NCBI RefSeq assembly: GCF_013003965.1
Contig: NZ_CP053069.1
Location: 1,767,419 to 1,831,418 of the forward strand
Direction: 5' to 3'
Origin: Usitatibacter rugosus
GTDB taxonomy: Bacteria > Pseudomonadota > Gammaproteobacteria > Burkholderiales > Usitatibacteraceae
DNA: 64,000 nt
Part shown: piece after piece, positions 13,492 to 52,656 of the stretch
Layout: the number at the start of each line of letters is the position of its first letter
Position numbering within the stretch: position 1 is the first letter of the stretch
Notes under the pieces: model-generated
Seen by the model: the letters and a program-made list of their open reading frames with translations, nothing else
Database searches by the model: none
What the model was told of the DNA's origin: nothing
Position numbers and translations under genes: made by a program

Positions 13492-14220
13492 ATGTTGATC
13501 GCGCTCGCCCTGCTGCTGACCCTTCCGCTCCTGTTCATCGCCTCCCAGGCGGTGATGTACCTGCGGCGCATCCGCTTCTCCGAATCGCTGGTCGCCCGCT
13601 CGGTTTGCGCGCAGTCCGTGCCCGAGGACGCCCGCCGGACGCTGGTGGTGGTGGGCGACAGCCTCGCCGTGGGGGTGGGGGCGCGTGCCGAGGAGTCCGT
13701 GGCCGGCCGGGTGGCGGCCGCTTTCCCGCACGTCCGCGTCTTCAACTATTCAAAGGCGGGGGCCCGGGCGCGCGACGTGGCGGCCCAGCTCGCCCGCTAT
13801 CCGGACGGCAAGGCCGACGTGGTCCTGCTCCAGGTGTGCGCCAACGATGTCTGCGGCCTGCATCGCATCGACACGATCGAGGCCCAGCTCCGCGGCGTGA
13901 TCGGGACGGCCCACGGCCTGGGCGCCCGGGTGTTCCTGATGCCGGGCAACAACTTCTGCCTGGCTCCCTTCTTCATGTGGCCGGCCCAGCCGCTGCTCAC
14001 CTACCGGGCGATTCGGATCCGCTCAATGCTCTCGCGCCTGGCCGAGCAGACGGGGGTCGAGTTCGTTGACCTTATATATGACCGCCACGAAGACCCCTTC
14101 CTCCGGGAGCCCCAGCGCTACTTCAGCGAGGACCTGATCCATCCGTCCGCGGAGGGGTACGCGCACTACTTCTCGCAGCTGCTCGCCAAGGGGAAGCTCG
14201 ACCGCTACCTGTCGGCCTAG
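13492..14220 (+). CDS. SGNH/GDSL-family hydrolase, membrane-anchored
   Basis: A 242-residue esterase/lipase-like protein. Residues 1-24 form a hydrophobic N-terminal anchor. Catalytic Ser57 is in VVGDSLAVGVG (block I), Asn in VCANDVC is block III, and Asp214/His217 are in DLIHPS (block V). The likely reaction is hydrolysis of an ester, perhaps on lipid or cell-wall acyl groups, in the periplasm. It is convergent with the acyl-synthase-like gene; the two stops share a CTAG (14217-14220). Confidence 0.88.
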   Translation: MLIALALLLTLPLLFIASQAVMYLRRIRFSESLVARSVCAQSVPEDARRTLVVVGDSLAVGVGARAEESVAGRVAAAFPHVRVFNYSKAGARARDVAAQLARYPDGKADVVLLQVCANDVCGLHRIDTIEAQLRGVIGTAHGLGARVFLMPGNNFCLAPFFMWPAQPLLTYRAIRIRSMLSRLAEQTGVEFVDLIYDRHEDPFLREPQRYFSEDLIHPSAEGYAHYFSQLLAKGKLDRYLSA

Positions 14221-42125: not shown

Positions 42126-42170
42126 TGGCGCCCCGAACACGAATCGAACGTGCGACCTGCCCCTTAGGAG
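42126..42170. repeat. attL: 3' tRNA-Arg fragment, 45-bp direct repeat
   Basis: Identical over 45 bp to 52581-52625, i.e. the 3' half of the tRNA-Arg(CCT) gene including the encoded CCA, in the same orientation. Identity stops at 42171/52626. The tRNA 5' half is absent here, so this is the displaced tRNA end left by integration. Confidence 0.95.
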
Positions 42171-42180
42171 AGGGTTTTAT

Positions 42181-42300
42181 GCACTTACCGATTCGCTCTG
42201 AGCCGCCGGTTTCATAGTGAAGATGTGAGCAAGCTGCGTCCGGTTGTGTCCCGGTAAGTGCTAGTATGTACGCCATTCTGCACTTACGGTGCACTTACGG
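42181..42300. promoter_or_regulatory. Left arm-type integrase binding sites (GCACTTACSG x4)
   Basis: Four copies of a 10-bp motif GCACTTAC(C/G)G within 120 bp of the core site: 42181-42190, 42252-42261 (inverted), and the direct pair 42280-42289 and 42291-42300 just before the integrase start. Two further copies lie at the other end (52518, 52529). Position at both inside ends of the element fits the P and P' arm sites of lambda-type integrases. The 146-bp gap 42171-42316 holds no gene. Confidence 0.7.
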
Positions 42301-42316
42301 AAAAGGGTCCACGGCA

Positions 42317-43516
42317 ATGGCGTTGAAGATCAACAAGACGGCGGTGAAGGAGGCGAAAGCCGGTGACAAGCCGCAAGAGTTGAGGTTTGAGGATGGGTTG
42401 ATTCTGCGCGTCCAACCGAGTGGCGTGCGCACCTATTACGTGGAAGTGGCGCGCGGCAAGCGCGTGCGCATCGGCCGCGTGGGCACCGTAACCCCTGCGA
42501 TGGCAGCGGAGGCCGCGAAAAGACTCTCCGTGAAGGTGATGGGCGAGGGCGTTGAGGCGGTGATGCCCGTGCGCGCCATCACGTTGGAAAAATTCATCGC
42601 GGATGTTTATGAGCCCTTCGTGGAGCACGAGCATCGGCGCGGCAAGCGCACCGCCGAGGATTTGCGCCGCAGTTTCGCTGACCTGTTGAGCACAAAGCTT
42701 GACCGCATCACCTCGCGTGAGCTTGATGCGTGGGTGCGTGGACGCCGGGAGGATGGCGTGAAGGCCGCCACCATCGCGCGAGAGGCAAATCAATTGCAAG
42801 GCGCACTTCGCTTCGCGGTAGAGCGCAAGCACCTGAAGGTGTCTCCCTTCGACACGTGGAAAGCGCCCAACGTGCCGCAAGGCAACGTGGAGCGCTACCT
42901 CACCACGCAGGAGAAAGCCGCTATTCGCAAGGCGCTTTCAGACCGGGACCGCCAACAAGCGCGCGAGCGTGCGAGTGCGAACAAGTGGCGGCGCGAGCGC
43001 CGTTATCCCGAGCTTCCCATGGTTGCAGATCACGTAATGCCAATGGTGCTCGTGCTGCTCAACACAGGCATGCGCTATGGCGAGGTTGTCAAGTTGGAAT
43101 GGCAAGCGGTGAACCTAACCACGCGCACGATTACTGTAGTGGGTGAAAAGGCAAAGGCCGGGCGCGGAAGAATCATTCAGTTGAATGATGAGGCGCTGAA
43201 GGTACTCACCACGTGGCGGGCCCTCACCAATCGCACGACCGGGCTTGTGTTTCAGTGCGATGGCGAGCCCATCAAGTCCATAAAGACGGCTTGGAAAACG
43301 ATCAAGAAAATGAGCGGTGTGGAAAACGTGCGCATTCACGACCTGCGGCACGACTTCGCTAGCAGCATCGTGCAACGCGGCGGAAGCGTCTACGTGGTGC
43401 AGAAGTTGTTGGGGCACGGCAACGTTTCGCAGACGATGCGATATGCGCACCTCGCGGATGAGCAGGCCGCCAAGGCCGTGGCGTTGCTTGATGGACACAA
43501 GCGCGGCGGCCGATGA
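42317..43516 (+). CDS. int: Tyrosine-family site-specific integrase
   Basis: About 399 residues with ATG 42317 (MALKINKTAVKEA; a start further upstream at 42266 would overlap the arm sites). N-terminal arm-binding DUF4102-like part (ELRFEDGLILRVQPSGVRTYYVEV), core-binding domain, and catalytic domain with Arg in NTGMRYGEVVKLEW, His-x-x-Arg in HDLRHDFASS, His in LLGHGN and Tyr in TMRYAHL. It should integrate the element at the tRNA-Arg gene. It is adjacent to attL, as usual. Confidence 0.94.
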   Translation: MALKINKTAVKEAKAGDKPQELRFEDGLILRVQPSGVRTYYVEVARGKRVRIGRVGTVTPAMAAEAAKRLSVKVMGEGVEAVMPVRAITLEKFIADVYEPFVEHEHRRGKRTAEDLRRSFADLLSTKLDRITSRELDAWVRGRREDGVKAATIAREANQLQGALRFAVERKHLKVSPFDTWKAPNVPQGNVERYLTTQEKAAIRKALSDRDRQQARERASANKWRRERRYPELPMVADHVMPMVLVLLNTGMRYGEVVKLEWQAVNLTTRTITVVGEKAKAGRGRIIQLNDEALKVLTTWRALTNRTTGLVFQCDGEPIKSIKTAWKTIKKMSGVENVRIHDLRHDFASSIVQRGGSVYVVQKLLGHGNVSQTMRYAHLADEQAAKAVALLDGHKRGGR

Positions 43517-43580
43517 GGGAAGGGGTGCTTGCACCCCATTAGTTTTCTCAATCGCGGATTTTGCGAGTTAGCAATCCGCA

Positions 43581-43620
43581 GCACATCGCATCACACCGCA
43601 TAGCACCGCATCACGTTGCA
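43581..43620. repeat. Four 10-bp tandem repeats before excisionase gene
   Basis: Units GCACATCGCA, TCACACCGCA, TAGCACCGCA, TCACGTTGCA, i.e. a 10-bp period close to one helical turn, between the integrase and the excisionase-like gene. Candidate for cooperative protein binding or bent DNA; not CRISPR. Confidence 0.6.
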
Positions 43621-43670
43621 ACCTTCGCACGTGGCACTTTCAATTGGCGTTTTTCTGTCGCTGCTTGGTA

Positions 43671-43720
43671 CCGTGTGAGTCCCTGCGTACACCGAAACAC
43701 GGTGAGACGCACTCACACGG
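43671..43720 (+). promoter_or_regulatory. Inverted repeat upstream of excisionase-like gene
   Basis: A perfect 10-bp inverted repeat CCGTGTGAGT (43671-43680) and ACTCACACGG (43711-43720) with an inner 5-bp stem CACCG/CGGTG (43691-43705), ending 8 bp before the ATG at 43729. It may be an operator or a structured leader that hides the ribosome site. Confidence 0.5.
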
Positions 43721-43728
43721 GAAGCGTC

Positions 43729-43941
43729 ATGCACACCAAGCTGAAGTCACCCTCGCGCCCGCGCCGCATCGCGCTCACCGTTGAAGAAGCACTTGAAACG
43801 GGCGCGTTCAACAGCCGCACTCACCTGTACAACGCCCTCAAGGATGGCGAGGTGAAAAGTTGGAGGGCGGGCAAGCGGCGCAAGATTTTGGCCGACAGCA
43901 TTGACGCCTACGTGGCGCGAAAGCTTCGGGAGGCCGCGTGA
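43729..43941 (+). CDS. Excisionase/AlpA-like helix-turn-helix protein
   Basis: A 70-residue DNA-binding protein with an excisionase-type winged helix: RRIALTVEEALETG, SRTHLYNALKDGEVKSWRAGKRRKI and a final helix SIDAYVARKL. Such proteins direct excision and may activate the integrase promoter. The frame is open further upstream, but the ATG at 43729 follows the inverted repeat. Stop overlaps the GTG of the next gene. Confidence 0.8.
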   Translation: MHTKLKSPSRPRRIALTVEEALETGAFNSRTHLYNALKDGEVKSWRAGKRRKILADSIDAYVARKLREAA

Positions 43942-44132
43942 AAGGCCCCGCGCTCAACAAGCTGATGACCTCGCGGCAACTACGCCGAAGCTTGAAGCGC
44001 TCGCGCGACGGCCTGCTGCGTATTCAACTGCCGCCACGACTCGGCAATGCGTTCAACACGGTGCGCGCGCCAATCACGGGCCTTCTGCCCATTGCAGACC
44101 CACCGGAAATAAAAACCCCGCCACACCTCTGA
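43938..44132 (+). CDS. Unknown 64-residue basic protein
   Basis: GTG at 43938 overlaps the stop of the excisionase-like gene (GTGA). The product (ALNKLMTSRQLRRSLKRSRDG, then LPPRLGNAF) is strongly basic and Pro-rich with no known family. Its last codons lie inside the hairpin at 44116-44139. Small basic proteins in this place are common in satellites, but I cannot assign it. Confidence 0.5.
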   Translation: MKGPALNKLMTSRQLRRSLKRSRDGLLRIQLPPRLGNAFNTVRAPITGLLPIADPPEIKTPPHL

Positions 44133-44139
44133 GGCGGGG
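44116..44139 (-). terminator. GC hairpin with minus-strand T-tract
   Basis: CCCCGCC/GGCGGGG (44116-44122, 44133-44139) with a 10-nt loop. On the minus strand it is followed by TTTTTATTT, an intrinsic terminator form; on the plus strand, where all element genes are, it lacks a T-tract and would act at most as an attenuator before the primase gene. Confidence 0.55.
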
Positions 44140-44152
44140 TAGGACTTCCCCA

Positions 44153-46390
44153 ATGGAGCACCGCGAGCAGTCCAAGGCTAGTCCACCCGTGGGCCTATCC
44201 GCAAGCGTTAGGGCCATTTCCGCTCTCTATTCGTTGGACGCGGGCATGCCGCGTGAACCGTGGTTCAAGGTGTGTTGCGCGTGCAAAGACGCGGGCGTTG
44301 GTGAGGATGAATTTCTCAAGTGGTGTGAGCAGGGCGCGAACTTCAACCGCGCCGATGCGATAGCCGCATACCGAAACGCGAAGCCCATGGCGGGCGGTGT
44401 CACCTCGGCCACGCTCTTCATGATGGCGCGGGATTCCGGATGGGACCCCGAGCGTGCGCACGGTGGTAACGGTGCGAGCGGTGTGCGCAACGCGCACGCC
44501 AGGGCGAGCGCGCCGCTACCGAAAGAGGAACCGCCGCCCACGGACCCGCGCCCTGTGTGGGATGCGTGCCAAGAGGTGCACGTGCATCCGTACACAACGC
44601 GCAAGAAAATCGGCACGCATGGTGCGCGCGTGAACGCCACCGGGTGGCTCGTGGTGCCGTATCACAACCGTGAGCGGCAACTGCAAACGCTCCAATACAT
44701 CGCAGCGGACGGCACCAAACGATTCCTTGCCGGTGCCAAGGCCAAGGGCTCGGTGTGCATCGTGGGCGAGTTGAGCGGAGCGCACACCGTGTGCGTGGCC
44801 GAGGGCTTCGCTACCGCGTGCGCGATCAACGAGGCGAGCGGCATGCCGGTGTTGGTTTCGGGCTCGCGCGTCACGATGCCCGAAGGCGCACTAATTGCCC
44901 GCCATTTCGCACCAAACGCGGCCATCGTGATCTTTGCGGACAGGGGTGACTTGTCTGTACCCATGGAAGCGGCGCGTGCCGTGCAGGGGCGCCTAGCGCT
45001 TCCCGGGCCTGAGGATTCACAGGACGGTTATGACGCGGCGGATTGGATCATTGAGGGTGCTACGCCCGCCGAGGTGCGCGCGCGGATCGAGCAGGCCGAG
45101 CCTGTCCCCCCGCTTCCTTCAACGCACACCAATGCACACACTGCACGCAACGTGATCGCGGCGGCACGCGATGCGGAACCCGGCACTGTCGGCCCGTACC
45201 TCGTTGATGGAAGGCGCAACATCCTTCCGAATCTCACCAACGTGCGCACCTTCATCGCGGCCGGTGGCATCGGCGAGTTGAGGGAGGATCGCTTCACCGG
45301 TGAGGTGGTTTGGAACGGCAAGCCTTTGCAGGGCGAAAGTGCCTTTTCGGAAATCACGGTGGCACTGCAAAGCGCGGTGATAGAGGCGCGCCGCCCGTTC
45401 ATGAAAGTCACCACGCCCTTAGTGCAAGAGGCCGCAATGATGGCTGCCACCGCCGACCCCTTTAACTCGGCGGCCGATTGGCTCGCCACGTTGCCCCACG
45501 ATGGCACCGAGCGCACGCCGCGATTCCTCGCGGACGTGTGCGACCTTGAGGCCACGGACTACTTGCAAGGCGTGAGCAAGTATTTTTGGCTCGGCATGGC
45601 GCTACGCATGGTGCATCCCGGCGCGCAGGTGGACAGCATCATCACGCTCGTGGGCCCGCAGGGAATCGGCAAGTCATCGCTCGCGCGCATCGTGGGCGGT
45701 GAGTATTACGGGGCCGTGGGCCTCGGCGATATTGGCTCAAAGGATTGGTGTCTCTCGCTGCGCGGCAAAATACTCGTTGAGCTTGATGAGTTGAGCGGGC
45801 ATTCACGCGCGGAGCTAGAGAACACCAAGGCGGTGCTCACGCGGCCGACAGACAACTATCGCAAGCCATACGGCAAGACCACGGTTGCGGTGCCACGCAC
45901 GTGCGTGATGATGGGCACCACCAATGAAAAGCAATTCTTAATGGACACGTCGGGCAATCGCCGATGGTTTCCGGTGCAGTGCAAGCGCCCATTTGCCTTG
46001 GACGTTGCGCGGGCTTTGAGGTTGGCATGCTTCGCCGAAGCGTATGCCCTTGTGAAGCAAGGACTACCCGACACGTGGCACACGGTGGCCGGTGCGGAGG
46101 GCAAGCAGGCCGAGCACACAGCACCTGACCCGTGGGTTGATGCATTGGATGAGCGCTTGCGCGACTCACAGGCGAACCCGGGCGAGTTGCCTACGGAAAT
46201 CACCAACAACGCGCTCTACCGGGCGTTGGGCATCCCGGCCGAGCGGCAAACAGGCGGCTACACCGGGAAGCGCCTGACCGCCGTGATGCGGACCTTGGGA
46301 TACGGCCGAGGTTGGGTGGATAACCCGAGCGGGAAGGGCAAGCAACAGCGCGGGTTCATCCTCGACAGCGAGGGCGGCGATGCCGAGTGA
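44153..46390 (+). CDS. Primase/VapE-type helicase replication protein
   Basis: A 745-residue replication protein. The N-terminal 85 residues match a PriCT-2 primase C-terminal domain (PWFKVCCACKDAGVGEDEFLKWC, ATLFMMARDSGWD); residues about 130-300 form a Toprim-like region with VCVAEGFATACAINEASG and VIFADRGD; the C half is a VapE superfamily-3-like helicase with Walker A GPQGIGKSS (about 501), Walker B ILVELDELS (about 541), and MMGTTNEKQFLMDTSGNRRWFPV. It should open and prime the iteron region that follows directly. Start at 44153 is inside an otherwise open frame. Confidence 0.88.
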   Translation: MEHREQSKASPPVGLSASVRAISALYSLDAGMPREPWFKVCCACKDAGVGEDEFLKWCEQGANFNRADAIAAYRNAKPMAGGVTSATLFMMARDSGWDPERAHGGNGASGVRNAHARASAPLPKEEPPPTDPRPVWDACQEVHVHPYTTRKKIGTHGARVNATGWLVVPYHNRERQLQTLQYIAADGTKRFLAGAKAKGSVCIVGELSGAHTVCVAEGFATACAINEASGMPVLVSGSRVTMPEGALIARHFAPNAAIVIFADRGDLSVPMEAARAVQGRLALPGPEDSQDGYDAADWIIEGATPAEVRARIEQAEPVPPLPSTHTNAHTARNVIAAARDAEPGTVGPYLVDGRRNILPNLTNVRTFIAAGGIGELREDRFTGEVVWNGKPLQGESAFSEITVALQSAVIEARRPFMKVTTPLVQEAAMMAATADPFNSAADWLATLPHDGTERTPRFLADVCDLEATDYLQGVSKYFWLGMALRMVHPGAQVDSIITLVGPQGIGKSSLARIVGGEYYGAVGLGDIGSKDWCLSLRGKILVELDELSGHSRAELENTKAVLTRPTDNYRKPYGKTTVAVPRTCVMMGTTNEKQFLMDTSGNRRWFPVQCKRPFALDVARALRLACFAEAYALVKQGLPDTWHTVAGAEGKQAEHTAPDPWVDALDERLRDSQANPGELPTEITNNALYRALGIPAERQTGGYTGKRLTAVMRTLGYGRGWVDNPSGKGKQQRGFILDSEGGDAE

Positions 46391-46834
46391 TCGGGCACGG
46401 TCCCGCAACAGTGCAGCAACACTAGGCTCCTTCGCAAGCGCCCCGCTGCTGTGGTGCCATCGCGGTTACAACAGTTGGCTACCGTGGGCAACGGTAGATG
46501 AAATCGGAACCGTTGCCGACTGTAGCAACAGTAGCAACAGTAGATTTCTAGAAACTAGTGAGAATGTGATTATTGTAGATATACGCGCGCGCGTAGTACG
46601 TGAATGCACGTTGCGGGAAGTGTTGGGCATTCCAACCGTTGCTACTGTTGCACTGTTGCTGAGGCCGGGGCAGGCAGGCACGGTGGGGGGTTCCCGCAAA
46701 AGTGCAGCGCCTCGCCCAACGAGCGGGGCCCGCCCACGAATAACCTATCGAGGCGCGAAAGCGGCAACTCCGATCCCCGCCGATGACCGTGCCCGAGGTG
46801 GTGAATCTCACCAAGTGCCGCGCGCGGGTGCTCC
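46391..46834. other. Iteron-rich noncoding region, candidate replication origin
   Basis: A 444-bp stretch with repeats of GCAACAGT/GTAGCAACA: 46405, 46416, 46488, and the tandem pair 46522-46539 on the left, and inverted copies (CCGTTGCTACTGTTGC 46636-46651, ACTGTTGC 46652-46659) on the right. Between them is an AT-rich centre (46541-46585, with TTTCTAGAAA) and an alternating purine-pyrimidine run ATACGCGCGCGCGTA (46580-46594). TCCCGCAACAGTGCAGC at 46401 recurs as TCCCGCAAAAGTGCAGC at 46692. Location after a primase-helicase gene fits an element origin. A plus-strand frame across it (46380-46838) has no coding character. Confidence 0.65.
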
Positions 46835-47332
46835 ATGACTGCCCGGCAACGCAGCACCACAGGGGTGGCCCGCGACCTTGAGCACATCAAGCAGGCGCAT
46901 GCGCTCGCGCTACCGCTCACCGAGCCCGCCACCGTGGAGCACGCGCGCTTGTCGGCCGCCTATCTCGGGAGCCTGCCGGGTGATGAACGCTCGCGCCCTG
47001 GCGCGCGCGCACTCGCCGCGACCGCCGCAACGATCACGTTAGCCATTGACCACCTCGCCCGTGAATTGGCATTGCGTGGCGCAGTCTGTCCTGACGGTTC
47101 GGCACATCCGCTCACGCGGAGCCTCGTTTCCCTAACGTCAGCGCAGATTGCGTGCCTTCGTGCGATGCGCGCTCTACCCACGCTAGACGCGCGCGTCATT
47201 CGCAACTGTGCCACGTTGGAGGCGCACTTCCGGGGCGGTGACTTGCAGCACCCCGCTAGCGCTACGCATCCACCGGTGGATTGGGTCAGTCAACTCAACG
47301 ATGAGGGGAAGCGAGGTACACATGAGCAATGA
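46835..47332 (+). CDS. Unknown 165-residue protein of the element
   Basis: First gene after the origin-like region, ATG 46835. No family recognised. Largely helical, Ala-rich: DLEHIKQAHALALPL, LAATAATITLAIDHLARELALRG and SAQIACLRAMRALPTLDARVI. No signal peptide or membrane helix. Its end overlaps the next gene by 11 bp. The position and helical form recall small satellite proteins, but no evidence ties it to packaging. Confidence 0.65.
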   Translation: MTARQRSTTGVARDLEHIKQAHALALPLTEPATVEHARLSAAYLGSLPGDERSRPGARALAATAATITLAIDHLARELALRGAVCPDGSAHPLTRSLVSLTSAQIACLRAMRALPTLDARVIRNCATLEAHFRGGDLQHPASATHPPVDWVSQLNDEGKRGTHEQ

Positions 47333-47618
47333 AATCACCTCCCACGGTTTCACCGCCGCCGAGGTTGGGCAAATCATGGGCGGACCGATGCCGCCAAAGG
47401 ACGAACCCGAGCAGCGCCGTGCCTATGCCGAGCTTGCCCGCATCCGTCTGCGCAAGTTTGATCACAAGCGCTTTCTCGTGGCGAGCCTGCTGCTAGATGC
47501 GCCGGACGACTTGCTAGACGAGTGGGCCGCCATGTCGCACGAGGAAACGCTACGGCAGCGCGCCATTGCACTGCGCGAGCGCGCGCAATCAACCATCAAC
47601 CGGGAGGATCAAGCATGA
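47322..47618 (+). CDS. Unknown 98-residue protein of the element
   Basis: ATG 47322 overlaps the previous gene by 11 bp. Product begins MSNEITSHGFTAAEVGQIMG; then a charged helical segment (YAELARIRLRKFDHKRFLVASLLL) and an acidic turn DAPDDLLDEWAAM. No family recognised. Stop overlaps the next ATG (ATGA at 47615). Confidence 0.65.
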   Translation: MSNEITSHGFTAAEVGQIMGGPMPPKDEPEQRRAYAELARIRLRKFDHKRFLVASLLLDAPDDLLDEWAAMSHEETLRQRAIALRERAQSTINREDQA

Positions 47619-48349
47619 GGATTCCCACCTTCACCGTTTCAGGACAGGTGCGCACCGTGGGGTGCGCCGCGCCTATTGCCATCGCCAAGCACGCGCGCAC
47701 GCGCTTTGCCGCGCTTGATGAAATGGATGACTCGGCGCAAATCACGCGCACGCTTGTTGAGGGCTGCCATGCGCTCGTGGACGCCGCGCGCGCCGCGAAG
47801 GCGTTGGACGATGTGCACGCGACCCTCGTTGATATGCGGCGGGCCCTTGATGGCGATGCCGGGTGCGAGCTTCGGCACGATGCCGTGCGCGAGGCGCGTG
47901 ACCTGCGCCTGCGCCGTGATGCCGTTCGGCGCGCCGCACCGGATCACGAAGTGGCGAGCCTTGATGAACTCGGGGAAGAGTTGAGCGCTGCTACCGGCAA
48001 GGTACTCACCGCACGCGAAGCCGCATGGGATGCCACGCACGAGGCAGGCCGCGTTGCGGCGTGGACCCTTCACCCGGCGCTTACTCGGTGCTCGGATGTG
48101 GGCATGACGTTGCGCGTGGCTGCGCGTGCAGGCCTGCTGCCGCCCACGATAGACCGCAACCTGGCCTTCGGCCCGGTAGCGGATCGCAACGCTCCCGAGG
48201 GCACGCCCGCACGCAACAGCGCCGATGCATTGGCGTGCGTCCTGCTCGCAAGTTGTGATGCCAACAAAGACCGGCGCGCCGAAGAGCAGCGCGTTGGGCG
48301 TGAGCTAGTGGCGCGAATCACTGCACTCATTGCGGAGGAACTCGCATGA
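47615..48349 (+). CDS. Unknown 244-residue protein of the element
   Basis: Good ribosome site (GGGAGGA) before ATG 47615, whose ATGA overlaps the previous stop. Helical, charged: ARTRFAALDEMDDSAQITRTLVE, AARAAKALDDVHATLVDMRRAL, REARDLRLRRDAVRRAAPD, LGEELSAATGKVLTAREAAWDATHE. This suggests a coiled-coil or bundle. No family recognised. The next gene starts by a 4-bp overlap. Confidence 0.65.
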   Translation: MRIPTFTVSGQVRTVGCAAPIAIAKHARTRFAALDEMDDSAQITRTLVEGCHALVDAARAAKALDDVHATLVDMRRALDGDAGCELRHDAVREARDLRLRRDAVRRAAPDHEVASLDELGEELSAATGKVLTAREAAWDATHEAGRVAAWTLHPALTRCSDVGMTLRVAARAGLLPPTIDRNLAFGPVADRNAPEGTPARNSADALACVLLASCDANKDRRAEEQRVGRELVARITALIAEELA

Positions 48350-48609
48350 ACGATATGGAGCGAAGAATCTACGACAACCTCGGCACTGTGCTGCGCGAGA
48401 GATTCGCGGAAATAGAAAAGCAGGTGAACCGCACCGATCGCGCGGCAAATCTCATCAAGACCGTGGAAGGCTTGCGCATTGATGAGTCCATCGCGGGCCT
48501 GCGCAGTTGGCTCTACACGATTGCGCATAAACGCTCGGCGCTTGTTGACGCGCGCACGAGCACGCCCGCGCCGTGGCTCGCCGAGTTGGACGCGGGAGGC
48601 TCGCCATGA
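48346..48609 (+). CDS. Unknown 87-residue protein of the element
   Basis: ATG 48346 overlaps the previous stop. Product with an N-terminal helix (RRIYDNLGTVLRERFAEIEKQV) and RSWLYTIAHKRSALVDA in the middle. No signal peptide, no recognised domain. Ends with a 4-bp overlap into the next gene. Confidence 0.6.
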   Translation: MNDMERRIYDNLGTVLRERFAEIEKQVNRTDRAANLIKTVEGLRIDESIAGLRSWLYTIAHKRSALVDARTSTPAPWLAELDAGGSP

Positions 48610-49190
48610 GGCACTTGAGCTCTACGCACGAAGTGCTGCACATCGTTGATGCCGCCGCGGCCCTCGCCACAATGCCCGGGGTGTCTAGCGCACTCGTGAA
48701 GGCGCATATCCACTTTGAGGATGATGACCCCATGGGGAACGCTCATGTGGCCTTCACGTTTATGAAGCCCGCGTACACGAGGGAACTAAGTGCACAGGAA
48801 AAGCGGCGCGTGCTTCAGTGTTGCGCGTGCGGCCCGTTGGGATTTTTTCGGAGCCGCGAGCAAATCGGGATGGCAATTCTCGAGGGCCGCCAACGTGAGC
48901 AAATGTCAGAGGTTGACTGCAAGCTTGCCGGGGACATTTCCGCGATTGATCAATTCGTCATGGGAGCGGTGGCCTTTGATTGGCTCACCCTCTACGGCCA
49001 CCGCATCGGGGAGTTGCACAAGCTGCTCACCTCGTGGGCGGTACGGTTCCACGGCCCGCTAGCCATCCCCGTTTCCGCCGTTTGCCCGCCCGAGCTTGCG
49101 GGAAGGCTCTTGCGCAATGCGCGTGCTCAGGTGCCGCATTGCCTGCCACCGGCGGCAACATTTTTGCGCATTGCGGGAGTGGCGGCATGA
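48606..49190 (+). CDS. Unknown 194-residue protein of the element
   Basis: ATG 48606 in a 4-bp overlap. Product has two adjacent Cys in LQCCACGPLGFFRS, the only Cys-rich spot in this gene set, and a C-terminal region HRIGELHKLLTSWAVRF. The middle shows DISAIDQFVMGAVAFDWLTLY. This CCxC plus nearby His could be a metal site, but no family is recognised. Ends with a 4-bp overlap (49187-49190). Confidence 0.62.
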   Translation: MRHLSSTHEVLHIVDAAAALATMPGVSSALVKAHIHFEDDDPMGNAHVAFTFMKPAYTRELSAQEKRRVLQCCACGPLGFFRSREQIGMAILEGRQREQMSEVDCKLAGDISAIDQFVMGAVAFDWLTLYGHRIGELHKLLTSWAVRFHGPLAIPVSAVCPPELAGRLLRNARAQVPHCLPPAATFLRIAGVAA

Positions 49191-49432
49191 GCGCTAGCCG
49201 TGTGATTCCCGTGACCATCATCAACAAGCATCCCATTTCAGAGGAGTCGGACACCATGAACCTCACCACGGACCCGCTGCCCGCCGAAGTTGTTGCCGCT
49301 GCTCGACGCGCGGGCTTCATCGTCCGCCCAAGCGCGGTGCCGGATTGCTTTGACCTGTACCGCGAGGACGGCACGGTAAGCGCGGCCTGCGTTTCGCGCG
49401 AGAGTGTGGAGACAGCCGCGCGCGCATGGTGA
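49187..49432 (+). CDS. Unknown 81-residue protein of the element
   Basis: ATG 49187 overlaps the previous stop; a second Met lies at 49256 (MNLTTDPLPAEVVAAARRAG). The C-terminal part (AGFIVRPSAVPDCFDLYREDGTVSA) looks like a small alpha/beta domain. Family unknown. Confidence 0.55.
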   Translation: MSASRVIPVTIINKHPISEESDTMNLTTDPLPAEVVAAARRAGFIVRPSAVPDCFDLYREDGTVSAACVSRESVETAARAW

Positions 49433-49438
49433 GGTGAC

Positions 49439-49699
49439 GTGGCAGCACCGATAAACCTCCCTCTCTTCGTGCAGGTTCTGCCGAGCGGCGGCCGCGTGCC
49501 GACCATTGCCCGGCCGCTCGGGCGAGACATTGCTACGCCGGGTGAACTGCTCGGCCCGGCATTGCCGCCGCGCTACGGCATGATCACTCGTGGGGCTTTC
49601 AACGAGGATTCGCTGACACGGCGCGGATGGACCCCGGATGCCGCCGCCGCTGCTGTGGGTGTATCCGCGTGGGGCGTGAATTGGTGGGGAAAGGTCTGA
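49439..49699 (+). CDS. Unknown 86-residue protein of the element
   Basis: GTG at 49439, with GAGGTGA overlapping the upstream gene end by position. Product begins MAAPINLPLFVQVLPSGGRV and ends SAWGVNWWGKV; Pro/Gly-rich, no known family. Last of the seven-gene overlapping block; a 50-bp gap separates it from the XRE-ImmA gene. Confidence 0.5.
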   Translation: MAAPINLPLFVQVLPSGGRVPTIARPLGRDIATPGELLGPALPPRYGMITRGAFNEDSLTRRGWTPDAAAAAVGVSAWGVNWWGKV

Positions 49700-49749
49700 C
49701 GGCCGAGGGGGTCCTTTGCGGTTGGCATCCCCCGCCCACATAATGGCTA

Positions 49750-50958
49750 ATGGCTACGCGCGTGAGGGCCCGGGTAAAGGGCCAATTACTGATTTGGGCG
49801 CGGGAAAGCGTCGGACTCTCGCCGAGCGCTGTTGCCAAACGGCTTAAGGTCAAGCCGGAAGTTATTGAGGCGTGGGAGGCGAATTCCGCCGCACCCACCG
49901 TCAAGCAACTTCAAAACCTCGCGGACCTCTACAAGCGCCCGCTAGGCGTTTTCTATCTCGCCGAGCCGCCGCTTTCATTCCAACCGATGAAGGACTTTAG
50001 GCGCATGCCCGGCAGAGGGATGCGCACTCTGTCCTATGAGTTGGCGCTTGAGATTCGCCTCGCCCACCAACAGCGGCTGCTAGCGATTGAACTTGCCGAA
50101 GAGTCGGGCGAGCCACCACCGCCGTTCACGCCTCGCGCCACGCTCGCCGACGATCCTGAGAGAGTTGGCCTGCAAATTCGTGAACTGCTAGGGGCCACCG
50201 AGGACGATAGGACGCATTGGGCTTCCGACAAGGAAGGGTACACGGCACTCAATACGTGGCGAGCCCGGATTGAAAAGATTGGCGTGCTTGTTTTTCAGGC
50301 TCAACGTGTTTCTTCGGATGAGGCCTCAGGATTTGCGATCGCGGAATCGCCCATGCCCGCGATAGTGGTGAGCCGCTCGGATACACCTCGGCGACGGACG
50401 TTCAGCCTGCTTCACGAATTCGCGCACCTGATGTTGCGAGTTAGTGGAGTTTCGGAAATTGACGTGGATGCTGCGCGCCCTCCCGAGGACCTGGCCGTAG
50501 AAGTTTTCTGCAATCGCGTTGCGTCCGCAGTGCTGATGCCGCGTGACCTATTTGTTGCTGAGGCTATCATCCGCACGCATCGCTCCGGCCCGGAGAGTTG
50601 GAGTGATGAGGACATTACGAACCTGTCGCACCGATATGGCGTGAGCAGAGAGGTTGTGGTGCGGAGAATGCTCACGTTCAACTTAACCACTCAGCGTTTC
50701 TACACGACGAAGCGCGAGCAATACAAAAAAGCGTTTGAGACGTGGACGCGCGAGAAAAAGGCGAAGATGCGCGCGAGCAAGAAGCAGTTTGCCAAGAATC
50801 CTCCGCGCGATGCTCTATCCAATCTCGGGCAACCACTCGTTAGGCGAATTCTTGAGAGCTACTACCAAGATCGCTTGTCGCTTAGTGACGTATCGAGCTA
50901 TCTCGGAATTCGCGCGAGGCACGTTGAGAAGTTAGAGAGCATGGTGGGTGGCCCGTAA
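49750..50958 (+). CDS. XRE-family helix-turn-helix with ImmA/IrrE metallopeptidase domain
   Basis: A 402-residue fusion: N-terminal Cro/C1-type HTH (LSPSAVAKRLKVKPEVIEAWEA region, residues 22-60), followed by an ImmA/IrrE (DUF955) protease with zinc-binding HEFAH (FSLLHEFAHLMLRVS) and FCNRVASAVLMPRDLF. The HTH-IrrE type is often paired with a DUF4411 protein, as here (next gene starts 1 bp after the stop). It may be antitoxin-like, controlling the pair's promoter. It could also regulate the element's own genes, as ImmA does with phage repressors. Confidence 0.9.
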   Translation: MATRVRARVKGQLLIWARESVGLSPSAVAKRLKVKPEVIEAWEANSAAPTVKQLQNLADLYKRPLGVFYLAEPPLSFQPMKDFRRMPGRGMRTLSYELALEIRLAHQQRLLAIELAEESGEPPPPFTPRATLADDPERVGLQIRELLGATEDDRTHWASDKEGYTALNTWRARIEKIGVLVFQAQRVSSDEASGFAIAESPMPAIVVSRSDTPRRRTFSLLHEFAHLMLRVSGVSEIDVDAARPPEDLAVEVFCNRVASAVLMPRDLFVAEAIIRTHRSGPESWSDEDITNLSHRYGVSREVVVRRMLTFNLTTQRFYTTKREQYKKAFETWTREKKAKMRASKKQFAKNPPRDALSNLGQPLVRRILESYYQDRLSLSDVSSYLGIRARHVEKLESMVGGP

Positions 50959-51441
50959 GTGGCGGCGAATCCCTCCTACAGCATTGACACAAGCTCGCTG
51001 ATTCATGCGTGGCGGCGAACCTATCCGCCTAGGAACTTCCCGCTTTTTTGGAAGTACCTTCACGAACTCGGCGAGGAAGGAAGGCTGTTTTCTTCCGCCG
51101 AGGTGCTTCGTGAGCTCAAGAAAAAAGATGATGAGTTGCACGATTGGTGCAAGAAGCGCTCCGGTTGTTTTCTACCCATTGACGATGACCAACAATCGCA
51201 CGTGTCCGAAATCATGACTAAGTATCCGCGCCTTGTGGACACTGCGACGGGCCGCTCTGCTGCCGACCCCTTCGTGATTGCGGTGGCGCGCATGCGTGAT
51301 CCGCGCCTTATCGTGGTGTCAGAGGAAAACAAGGGGAAGCTCAACTCCCCCAAAGTGCCTGACGTGTGCGCGGGAGAGGGCATTCAATGTATTCAGCTAG
51401 TGAAGCTGATCGAGACTGAGAATTGGGTCTTTAGCGGATAG
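50959..51441 (+). CDS. DUF4411 family protein, PIN-like nuclease, probable toxin of TA pair
   Basis: A 160-residue protein with GTG start directly after the XRE-ImmA stop. PIN-like acidic residues are visible in SYSIDTSSLIHAW, in SSAEVLRELKKKDDEL and in ADPFVIAVARM. The members that I know are adjacent to HTH-ImmA genes. RNA cleavage is the inferred activity; not proven for this family here. Encoded on the AT-richer right side of the element. Confidence 0.82.
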   Translation: MAANPSYSIDTSSLIHAWRRTYPPRNFPLFWKYLHELGEEGRLFSSAEVLRELKKKDDELHDWCKKRSGCFLPIDDDQQSHVSEIMTKYPRLVDTATGRSAADPFVIAVARMRDPRLIVVSEENKGKLNSPKVPDVCAGEGIQCIQLVKLIETENWVFSG

Positions 51442-51502
51442 CAGCGGAAACTCGGCGCACGTATTTTGAATTTTCCGTGGCCCCTCACGACACGACCAAG
51501 GC

Positions 51503-52513
51503 ATGGAACCGGAAATCCTCTCGATAGCGTCGTACTTGGGTCTTTGGTTCGTGGTGTACAGAGCCATTCGGTTTCTGTTTGACAGGGCCGAGGCCGACGC
51601 CTCTCCCGCCATGCGGACCGATTGGATACGTTGGATTCATAGAGACACGCCGCAACGGGTGGTCAATCGACTGCCCAAGATGTTCATCGAGACATTTGAC
51701 AGGCTGTTTGGTTACCGTGCATTTAGTTTTGGCTTTTTCCTTCGCTCGTCTGTTGTTACGGTGGTCGCTCTTAGCATGTTGCTTTTGGCTTGGGCGGCGT
51801 TCCGCCCGGATCAGGCCGTGCAGGCTGCAGTGGTGTTGGTGAAGCGGGATGGCTCGCTATTGGGTTTGTTGTTGGCGATAGTCCTGTGGCTCATCTTCGC
51901 AACGCTATTGAACGTCATTCCCGACTACCTTTCTGTCGTCAAGAGTAGGGCGCTCATCGGTGCAGCAGCACGTACCTCATCATCAACAAAATTCGTAGGA
52001 CTTGTACTTGCGGATATCGCCTTGAGCGCGTTGTTGGGACTCCTAGCCACCGCGCTTGTCGCATACGTTGTTTGGTTGTTCTTCCCGTTCTATCTGCCGA
52101 ATTTTGGTAGTAGCTGGAAAGCAATTTCCACCAACTTAAACTTCAGCTTCATTACCTTCCAAGACTTCCTAGACATCCTTTCCCTTAAGGCAAACCCCGG
52201 CATACAAATGACGTGGGTTTTTTTTGATTCGGCGGGAGTGAAGCAGGGCGAGTGGAAGGAAACGGGCGGCAACCTCGTACCGATTGGTGTGAATTTCTAT
52301 GCCACCTTCTTTACCACCTTGTGGATGGGCATTTTTATGAGCGCGACTAGTTGGGTTCGTATCTACCCGCGAGCGCTAGCGATTGGCGATTGGTTTCGCC
52401 GCGCATTCAATGTGAATGAAAAGCCCTTCCAATCCTTGGGAACGATGATTGCGGTTTGGGCGAGCGTTGGATTTTTGATCGGGCTAGTTCTGCTTCTTGT
52501 GGCGCGGTTCTAG
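51503..52513 (+). CDS. Unknown multi-pass membrane protein (cargo of element)
   Basis: A 336-residue protein with about six membrane helices (for example SSVVTVVALSMLLLAWAAF, LGLLLAIVLWLIFATLLNVI, LVLADIALSALLGLLATALV, FYATFFTTLWMGIFMSATSW). A ~75-residue hydrophilic loop follows helix 4 (FGSSWKAISTNLNFSFITFQ to about residue 265). No family recognised. It is the last gene before attR, has a lower GC and more AT-rich codons than the chromosome, and stands alone, a usual site for exchangeable cargo such as phage defence or superinfection exclusion; no direct evidence for that. Confidence 0.7.
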   Translation: MEPEILSIASYLGLWFVVYRAIRFLFDRAEADASPAMRTDWIRWIHRDTPQRVVNRLPKMFIETFDRLFGYRAFSFGFFLRSSVVTVVALSMLLLAWAAFRPDQAVQAAVVLVKRDGSLLGLLLAIVLWLIFATLLNVIPDYLSVVKSRALIGAAARTSSSTKFVGLVLADIALSALLGLLATALVAYVVWLFFPFYLPNFGSSWKAISTNLNFSFITFQDFLDILSLKANPGIQMTWVFFDSAGVKQGEWKETGGNLVPIGVNFYATFFTTLWMGIFMSATSWVRIYPRALAIGDWFRRAFNVNEKPFQSLGTMIAVWASVGFLIGLVLLLVARF

Positions 52514-52517
52514 CATT

Positions 52518-52538
52518 GCACTTACCGCGCACTTACGC
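52518..52538. promoter_or_regulatory. Right arm-type integrase sites (GCACTTACSS x2)
   Basis: Two adjacent copies, GCACTTACCG (52518-52527) and GCACTTACGC (52529-52538), one base apart as in the 42280/42291 pair, 43 bp before the attR core. They are the P' arm counterpart of the left sites. Confidence 0.65.
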
Positions 52539-52580
52539 CGATGAGGCGGGACCGTCATTCGTCGTAAGTATTTGATTTAT

Positions 52581-52656
52581 TGGCGCCCCGAACACGAATC
52601 GAACGTGCGACCTGCCCCTTAGGAGGGGGCTGCTCTATCCACTGAGCTACCGGGGC
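52581..52656 (-). tRNA. tRNA-Arg(CCT), attachment site of the element
   Basis: A 76-nt tRNA including encoded CCA. 7-bp acceptor stem (GCCCCGG with TCGGGGC, last pair G-T), D arm GCTCAGTGGATAGAGC, anticodon arm with loop CTCCTAA so anticodon CCT, T arm GCACG-TTCGATT-CGTGT. The 45-bp 3' part is duplicated at attL. The 3' half now present was therefore supplied by the element, restoring a full gene at its right end. Confidence 0.95.

Follow-up and report, generated by a model that had tools for sequence, protein, structure and literature searches.

Gram-negative phage-inducible chromosomal islands (PICIs) are described in PMC6092414 as rightward-transcribed elements of Enterobacteriaceae and Pasteurellaceae in which int, a regulator and pri-rep are followed by an origin where an AT-rich region lies between two sets of iterons. 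According to the same paper, these islands carry interference genes, accessory genes and, in some members, terS, which encodes the small terminase subunit (TerS), and are devoid of structural genes. The phage-inducible chromosomal minimalist islands (PICMIs), as presented in PMC10803314, have a core of an integrase, an alpA-type helix-turn-helix (HTH) protein, whose model admits PF12728, and a primase; they adjoin fis and have a reduced gene content. Here we describe a 10.5-kb element in a tRNA-Arg(CCT) gene of Usitatibacter rugosus, located within a window of 64 kb, which is the whole stretch analysed (contig NZ_CP053069.1, positions 1,767,419 to 1,831,418; coordinates below count from the first base of the window unless stated otherwise). 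This tRNA-Arg element is likely to be a phage satellite of PICI-like type that has integrated into the chromosome and carries a TerS-linked cassette not described before: five of its genes recur in the same order, behind a recognisable TerS, in a second and otherwise different element (E2) of the same chromosome.

Gene order and ends of the tRNA-Arg element

The element holds 14 called genes (the gene starts are our choice), all on the plus strand and hence transcribed rightward as in Gram-negative PICIs. The integrase gene, the excisionase-like gene and the primase-VapE helicase gene, in this order, precede the iteron origin, after which come seven genes without a family, a toxin-antitoxin pair and a gene for a membrane protein. 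The first gene (42317-43516) encodes a tyrosine integrase of 399 aa (PF00589 8.6e-29, PF13356 5.1e-7, phrog_1 4.2e-60). It is followed by a small HTH protein of 70 aa, excisionase- or AlpA-like (43729-43941), whose matches to PF12728 (HTH_17; 1.2e-4) and TIGR01764 (3.6e-5) both lie below the curated cut-offs, and by orf3 (43938-44132, 64 aa), which has no family and an uncertain coding status. The replication protein (44153-46390, 745 aa) is a primase-helicase with a PriCT_2 domain (PF08707 1.5e-7), a weak Toprim domain (PF13362 0.0054, below cut-off) and a VapE-like domain (PF05272 1.2e-50).

Directly downstream lies an origin-like region in which no gene was called (46391-46834). All five copies of the octamer GCAACAGT present in the window fall within 46405-46659, three on the plus strand (46405, 46525 and 46534) and two on the minus strand (46644 and 46652); none of 100 shuffles of the window holds five, for a motif that was itself chosen from the origin-like region. 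The resulting iteron sets, 46405-46541 and 46644-46659, flank the most AT-rich 30 bp (46544-46573, 73% AT).

The ends of the element are defined by a duplication of the target gene. Positions 42126-42174 and 52581-52629 are identical at 48 of 49 bases, and the first 45 form an exact direct repeat, such that attL (42126-42170), a distal copy of the tRNA-Arg 3' half, equals 52581-52625 at 45/45 bases. The latter stretch, attR, is by the repeat and the tRNA call the 3' half of the intact tRNA-Arg(CCT) gene (52581-52656, minus strand), the integration target. The predicted excised circle measures 10,455 bp, and the element has a GC content of 0.606, the remainder of the window one of 0.677. All five exact copies of GCACTTACSG in the window lie inward of the repeat copies and within 130 bp of them: four at the left end (42181-42300; at 42181, 42252 on the minus strand, 42280 and 42291) and one at the right end (52518-52538), where a further copy with one mismatch is found. 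With one mismatch allowed, the window contains 11 sites where 5.3 are expected, and none of 100 shuffles contains as many; as the motif was picked by eye from the element ends, this count is descriptive. From their position and their repetition at both ends, these arm-type repeats may be sites of integrase binding.

The likeness to Gram-negative PICIs, as characterised in PMC6092414, covers the integrase, the small regulator or excisionase-like protein, the primase-helicase, the rightward direction and the accessory genes at the 3' end; in addition, no structural or lysis gene was recognisable when the element proteins were scanned against Pfam and PHROGs. Differences remain, since orf8-orf12 match no described family, an AlpA-specific match is absent and TerS is recognised in E2 only. 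With PICMIs (PMC10803314), the element shares the integrase, the PF12728-type HTH protein and the primase, but it sits in tRNA-Arg with a seven-gene block rather than next to fis with a reduced gene set. It is distinguished from capsid-forming PICIs (cfPICIs), which have capsid genes of their own, by the lack of any capsid, portal or large terminase subunit (TerL) match among its proteins. P4-like satellites carry Psu, Sid and Delta-type genes, whereas the Pfam and PHROGs scans returned no match of these types.

Since the genes have the order and the rightward direction, and the origin the layout, published for Gram-negative PICIs (PMC6092414), the element belongs to a known kind. We call it PICI-like because the architecture that can be tested agrees, but terS, optional in PICIs, is absent by sequence, the regulator is not demonstrably AlpA and the dependence on a helper is presumed. 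A preliminary description, made from the letters of the window, had suggested a possible new satellite lineage. This is borne out in part: the novelty lies in the five-gene cassette that the element has in common with E2, but the layout is of the published Gram-negative PICI type. The other statements of that description on gene content hold, namely that a 45-bp repeat of the tRNA-Arg(CCT) 3' half frames 10.5 kb (42126-52625), that integrase, excisionase-like gene, primase-VapE helicase, origin-like region and cargo are present, that seven proteins lack a family and that the element is satellite-like without recognisable structural genes, profile scans against Pfam, PHROGs and NCBIfam having given no structural or conjugation match.

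The orf8-orf12 cassette and the sibling element E2

The seven genes after the origin-like region (orf6-orf12, 46835-49699) are packed, and those from orf7 to orf11 adjoin one another through ATGA overlaps at all four successive junctions. For their products Pfam yields no match above the cut-off and PHROGs none better than 0.036, and no match was obtained in PADLOC (six of the seven, orf11 left out) or NCBIfam (orf6, orf8, orf10 and orf12). Sequence searches of solved structures with orf6, orf8, orf10, a cassette profile and the membrane protein of the element gave nothing better than E 0.1, and the predicted model of orf8 is too poor for a fold search (predicted local distance difference test score, pLDDT, 52.5; predicted template modelling score, pTM, 0.29).

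The comparison that lends these genes a context comes from E2, which was found by reading around the sole match to PF05119 (P27 small terminase) in the same genome, far from the window. E2 occupies 10.8 kb in tRNA-Ser(GCT) (G000:C1 1165469-1176295; L095:10470 to L096:1296) and has a 24-bp exact repeat of the 3' end of this tRNA gene, with a predicted circle of 10,803 bp; of six copies of the octamer GTTTGCAY in the 40 kb read, five lie close to the ends of E2. Its integrase is a different tyrosine integrase of the same broad family, with a weak match (E 0.01) to that of the tRNA-Arg element, and E2 further encodes a protein resembling HTH_17, with a match below cut-off, a primase-like protein with a zinc region and a helicase-like AAA_25 protein. 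In the coordinates of the stretch read, nine of the 11 copies of GTCCGAA in 40 kb lie within 14005-14168, several of them spaced 11 bp, and the iteron sets 14005-14101 and 14141-14174 flank a modestly AT-rich segment (14113-14142, 60%). Iterons flanking an AT-rich stretch straight after the replication gene, the origin arrangement given in PMC6092414, are therefore found in both elements. The core of E2 is likewise rightward, but the element ends with cargo on the opposite strand, where an Eco57I-type methyltransferase is accompanied by two unplaced proteins.

E2 encodes a TerS that matches PF05119 above its cut-off (6.8e-9) as well as phrog_83, terminase small subunit (1.4e-15); it is followed by five homologues of orf8, orf9, orf10, orf11 and orf12 in conserved order. 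In pairwise comparisons none of 1000 shuffles reaches any of the five scores, and tblastn against E2 at E 0.05 reports four of the five cassette genes, orf9 being the one missed, and no other protein of the tRNA-Arg element. Conservation is highest in orf12 (49439-49699, 86 aa; 58% over 79 aa, 2e-24, Z 41.7); the matches of orf8 (47615-48349, 244 aa; 38% over 242 aa, 2e-34, Z 49.8), orf10 (48606-49190, 194 aa; 33% over 182 aa, 5e-21, Z 35.3), orf11 (49187-49432, 81 aa; 38% over 81 columns, 1.5e-10, Z 22.4) and orf9 (48346-48609, 87 aa; Z 22.2) complete the cassette. The TerS of E2 stands where the tRNA-Arg element has orf6 (46835-47332, 165 aa, no family) and orf7 (47322-47618, 98 aa); no counterpart of orf7 was found in E2. 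Integrases, targets, replication genes and iterons thus differ between the two elements while orf8-orf12 are common to both, which indicates that the cassette is not tied to one replicon. Judged from sequence, the block is probably a transferable, packaging-linked cassette. Because it is common to two otherwise different elements and a packaging gene heads it in one of them, the simplest reading is that orf8-orf12 would serve packaging or the redirection of phage heads. The preliminary statement that the element has no terminase gene is correct by sequence for the tRNA-Arg element itself, but the sibling has a TerS in the matching slot, and the idea of a block without any link to terminase is weakened accordingly. 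Small terminase genes grouped with small genes downstream of an origin are also a feature of the packaging and capsid operon of the Staphylococcus aureus pathogenicity islands (SaPIs); the arrangement in E2 resembles it, although no Pfam or PHROGs match ties orf8-orf12 to the SaPI proteins.

The possibility that orf6 is itself a TerS was examined with ten TerS sequences, including that of E2, taken from 15 loci (the other five were unclear or differed greatly in length and were not used). A profile of the ten gave orf6 -0.9 bits in hmmsearch, and 432 of 1000 shuffles scored as well; in the pairwise comparison with the TerS of E2 the figure was 249 of 1000. With hhalign, orf6 reached 0.64% against the ten (200 shuffles: 95th percentile 0.60%, largest 1.8%), and two non-TerS element proteins scored higher (0.88% and 1.02%). 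Its single-sequence structural model is helical, the best of five having a pLDDT of 70.9 and a pTM of 0.67 and the other four a pLDDT of 40.7-56.8. A fold search with it found no match at E 0.001 in PDB or BFVD; four of the 50 BFVD rows listed are named terminase small subunit (ranks 3, 6, 17 and 38), none of them significant, and we take this as a hint only. As the sequence tests do not set orf6 apart from shuffles or from unrelated element proteins, it is only through its position that it is a TerS candidate.

The cassette is likely to be rare, as far as sequence searches can tell. Among 50,697 phage records no match at E 0.1 was found for orf6, orf7, orf8-orf12, the orf8-orf12 homologues of E2 or the TerS of E2, and tblastn with orf6 and both sets of orf8-orf12 gave no match in 72,556 plasmid records. 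In viral contigs, patterns derived from orf8, orf10 and two alignments matched 9, 0, 81 and 29 stretches, and a primase pattern five; in genome contigs, an orf10 pattern matched 60 stretches and an orf12-alignment pattern 260. None of these was confirmed. An orf8-orf12 profile found the cassette in its own genome only among 28 genomes of the family, and among 399 genomes of the order in its own genome, together with one chance-like match elsewhere (G391; E 0.006, 14.7 bits). At most two candidates were scored per genome in two of the wider searches, one of which, made with a single-sequence chimera, missed even E2 in its own genome, and the contig scans needed exact motifs. As these wide searches were shallow, the absence of the cassette elsewhere is weak evidence. 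A literature search by general terms brought up nothing that we recognised as the orf8-orf12 cassette, and a printed account may nevertheless exist.

The only PF05119 match of the genome is that of E2, and no PF04860 portal was found in it (three of the 28 family genomes have one). The TerS of E2 therefore does not stem from a resident prophage of the PF04860 portal type, and a helper would be external or of another portal class. In two other genomes of the order (G057, L097; G034, L098), about 2 to 4 kb separate a PF05119 TerS from a primase relative; such neighbours may recur.

Cargo genes and the tRNA-Arg(CCT) site in relatives

Downstream of the cassette lie an XRE-ImmA/IrrE protein of 402 aa (49750-50958; PF06114 3.6e-16; RmrA 3.2e-17 in PADLOC; PDB 9vzy chain A 1.3e-58) and a DUF4411 protein of 160 aa, a putative PIN-like toxin (50959-51441; PF14367 6.9e-36; PIN 0.038, below cut-off; 9vzy chain D 2.2e-26). 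These adjacent genes match both chains of 9vzy, a complex of an XRE-ImmA and a DUF4411 protein, and the pair may act as a toxin-antitoxin system here. Compared with RosmerTA, the first gene matches the RmrA models, but the second has no PADLOC match. This part of the element is ordinary cargo. The adjoining gene (51503-52513) encodes a membrane protein that has about six hydrophobic segments and matches no family; this may be a defence gene not yet described.

An empty integration site, a comparison proposed in the preliminary description, was sought in relatives. In one complete relative (G004), the tRNA side matches 103 bp exactly and ends at the outer end of the repeat, and no second repeat copy is present in the 40 kb read; however, the left-flank gene lies about 17 kb away and the flanks are rearranged, so this is no clean empty site. 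Of five other genomes of the genus, four have one strong match to the repeat (95-98%), and the fifth (G002) has a second match on another contig. This second copy of the tRNA-Arg(CCT) 3' half, exact over 45 bp, lies near a contig end (G002:C340, L075:5720-5764), and another element may have used the site there. In a further genome (G042, L072:2631-16758), 14 kb separate tRNA-Arg(CCT) from a second 3'-half copy, both 93% identical to the 45-bp repeat; read as open reading frames (ORFs), this stretch has a distant integrase relative (23%) at its far end and several large ORFs. The tRNA-Arg(CCT) gene seems to be an integration hotspot beyond this satellite. In another genome (G052:C73, L070:4881-5962), a contig end holds a 98% copy of the att repeat with a partial integrase of about 35% identity immediately inward of it, and the pairing of integrase and site may be common to several families of the order.

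Proposed satellite function and rival explanations

We propose that a helper phage in the cell would trigger the element, upon which the integrase and the excisionase-like protein would cut it out as the 10,455-bp circle and the primase-helicase would copy this circle from the iteron origin. The coupled block orf6-orf12, with orf6 (and orf7) standing in for TerS, would steer helper packaging and/or head assembly towards satellite DNA, and the 3' cargo, toxin-antitoxin pair and membrane protein, would protect the host or stabilise the element. A more specific proposal, which we put forward tentatively, is that orf8-orf12 form a hijack cassette, portable and not described before, whose DNA-recognition subunit can be exchanged. 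In E2 this subunit would be a P27 TerS, and in the tRNA-Arg element orf6 with orf7 would replace it, either unrelated to TerS or diverged from it in the extreme; satellites of unrelated replicons would acquire the same cassette and swap the recognition part according to their own genome or helper.

Several observations weigh against a PICI-like satellite. A helper phage was not found, nor was a clean empty site, the flanks being rearranged in G004, the one complete relative examined closely. Both arm and iteron motifs were chosen after looking, the HTH protein stays under its curated cut-offs and no AlpA model is listed for it in Pfam at E 1. The known instances of the cassette number just two and share one genome, and orf6 is not recognisable as a TerS in the pairwise and hhalign comparisons. 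Some of these points suit a self-replicating integrative element or defence island that is not packaged by phages, relies on excision and rare co-transfer, and uses the cassette for replication control or maintenance. That no helper was identified and no PF04860 portal is present in the genome, that the block directly follows the origin-like region in both elements, that orf6 is not recognisable as a TerS and that the tRNA-Arg element carries a toxin-antitoxin pair with a membrane protein as cargo and E2 a methyltransferase would all fit such an element. We nevertheless regard it as unlikely, as a TerS heads the cassette in E2 and the two elements have the cassette in common despite unlike replication genes and iterons. 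TerS is not known to be used outside packaging.

The integrase, the phage-type primase and the TerS of E2 would also be expected in a remnant of a prophage whose structural genes were lost, but two elements of similar length with five genes in the same order, starts that overlap stops, and att and arm-type sites that are intact make such decay very improbable, as does the lack of any TerL, portal, capsid, tail or lysis match among the proteins scanned (in E2, ten proteins against Pfam and eight against PHROGs). Least probable among the readings considered is an integrative mobilisable element that depends on a conjugative helper for its transfer: the size and cargo would be compatible and seven genes are unplaced, yet no relaxase or conjugation family appeared among the proteins scanned and the plasmid records yielded no match to orf6 or to either set of orf8-orf12. 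A PICI-like satellite with a TerS-linked cassette therefore remains the reading that we prefer.

Satellites are usually recognised by known genes, and cassettes of unknown genes consequently stay unread. Two elements in one chromosome that differ in integrase, target and replication genes provide a natural comparison, in which the shared orf8-orf12 are good candidates for the hijack function, and the differing part, TerS in one element and orf6/orf7 in the other, is a good candidate for choosing the DNA to be packaged. If this holds true, the cassette would contribute five protein families, all of them new, that act in packaging or capsid redirection, and would offer a handle for finding further satellites.

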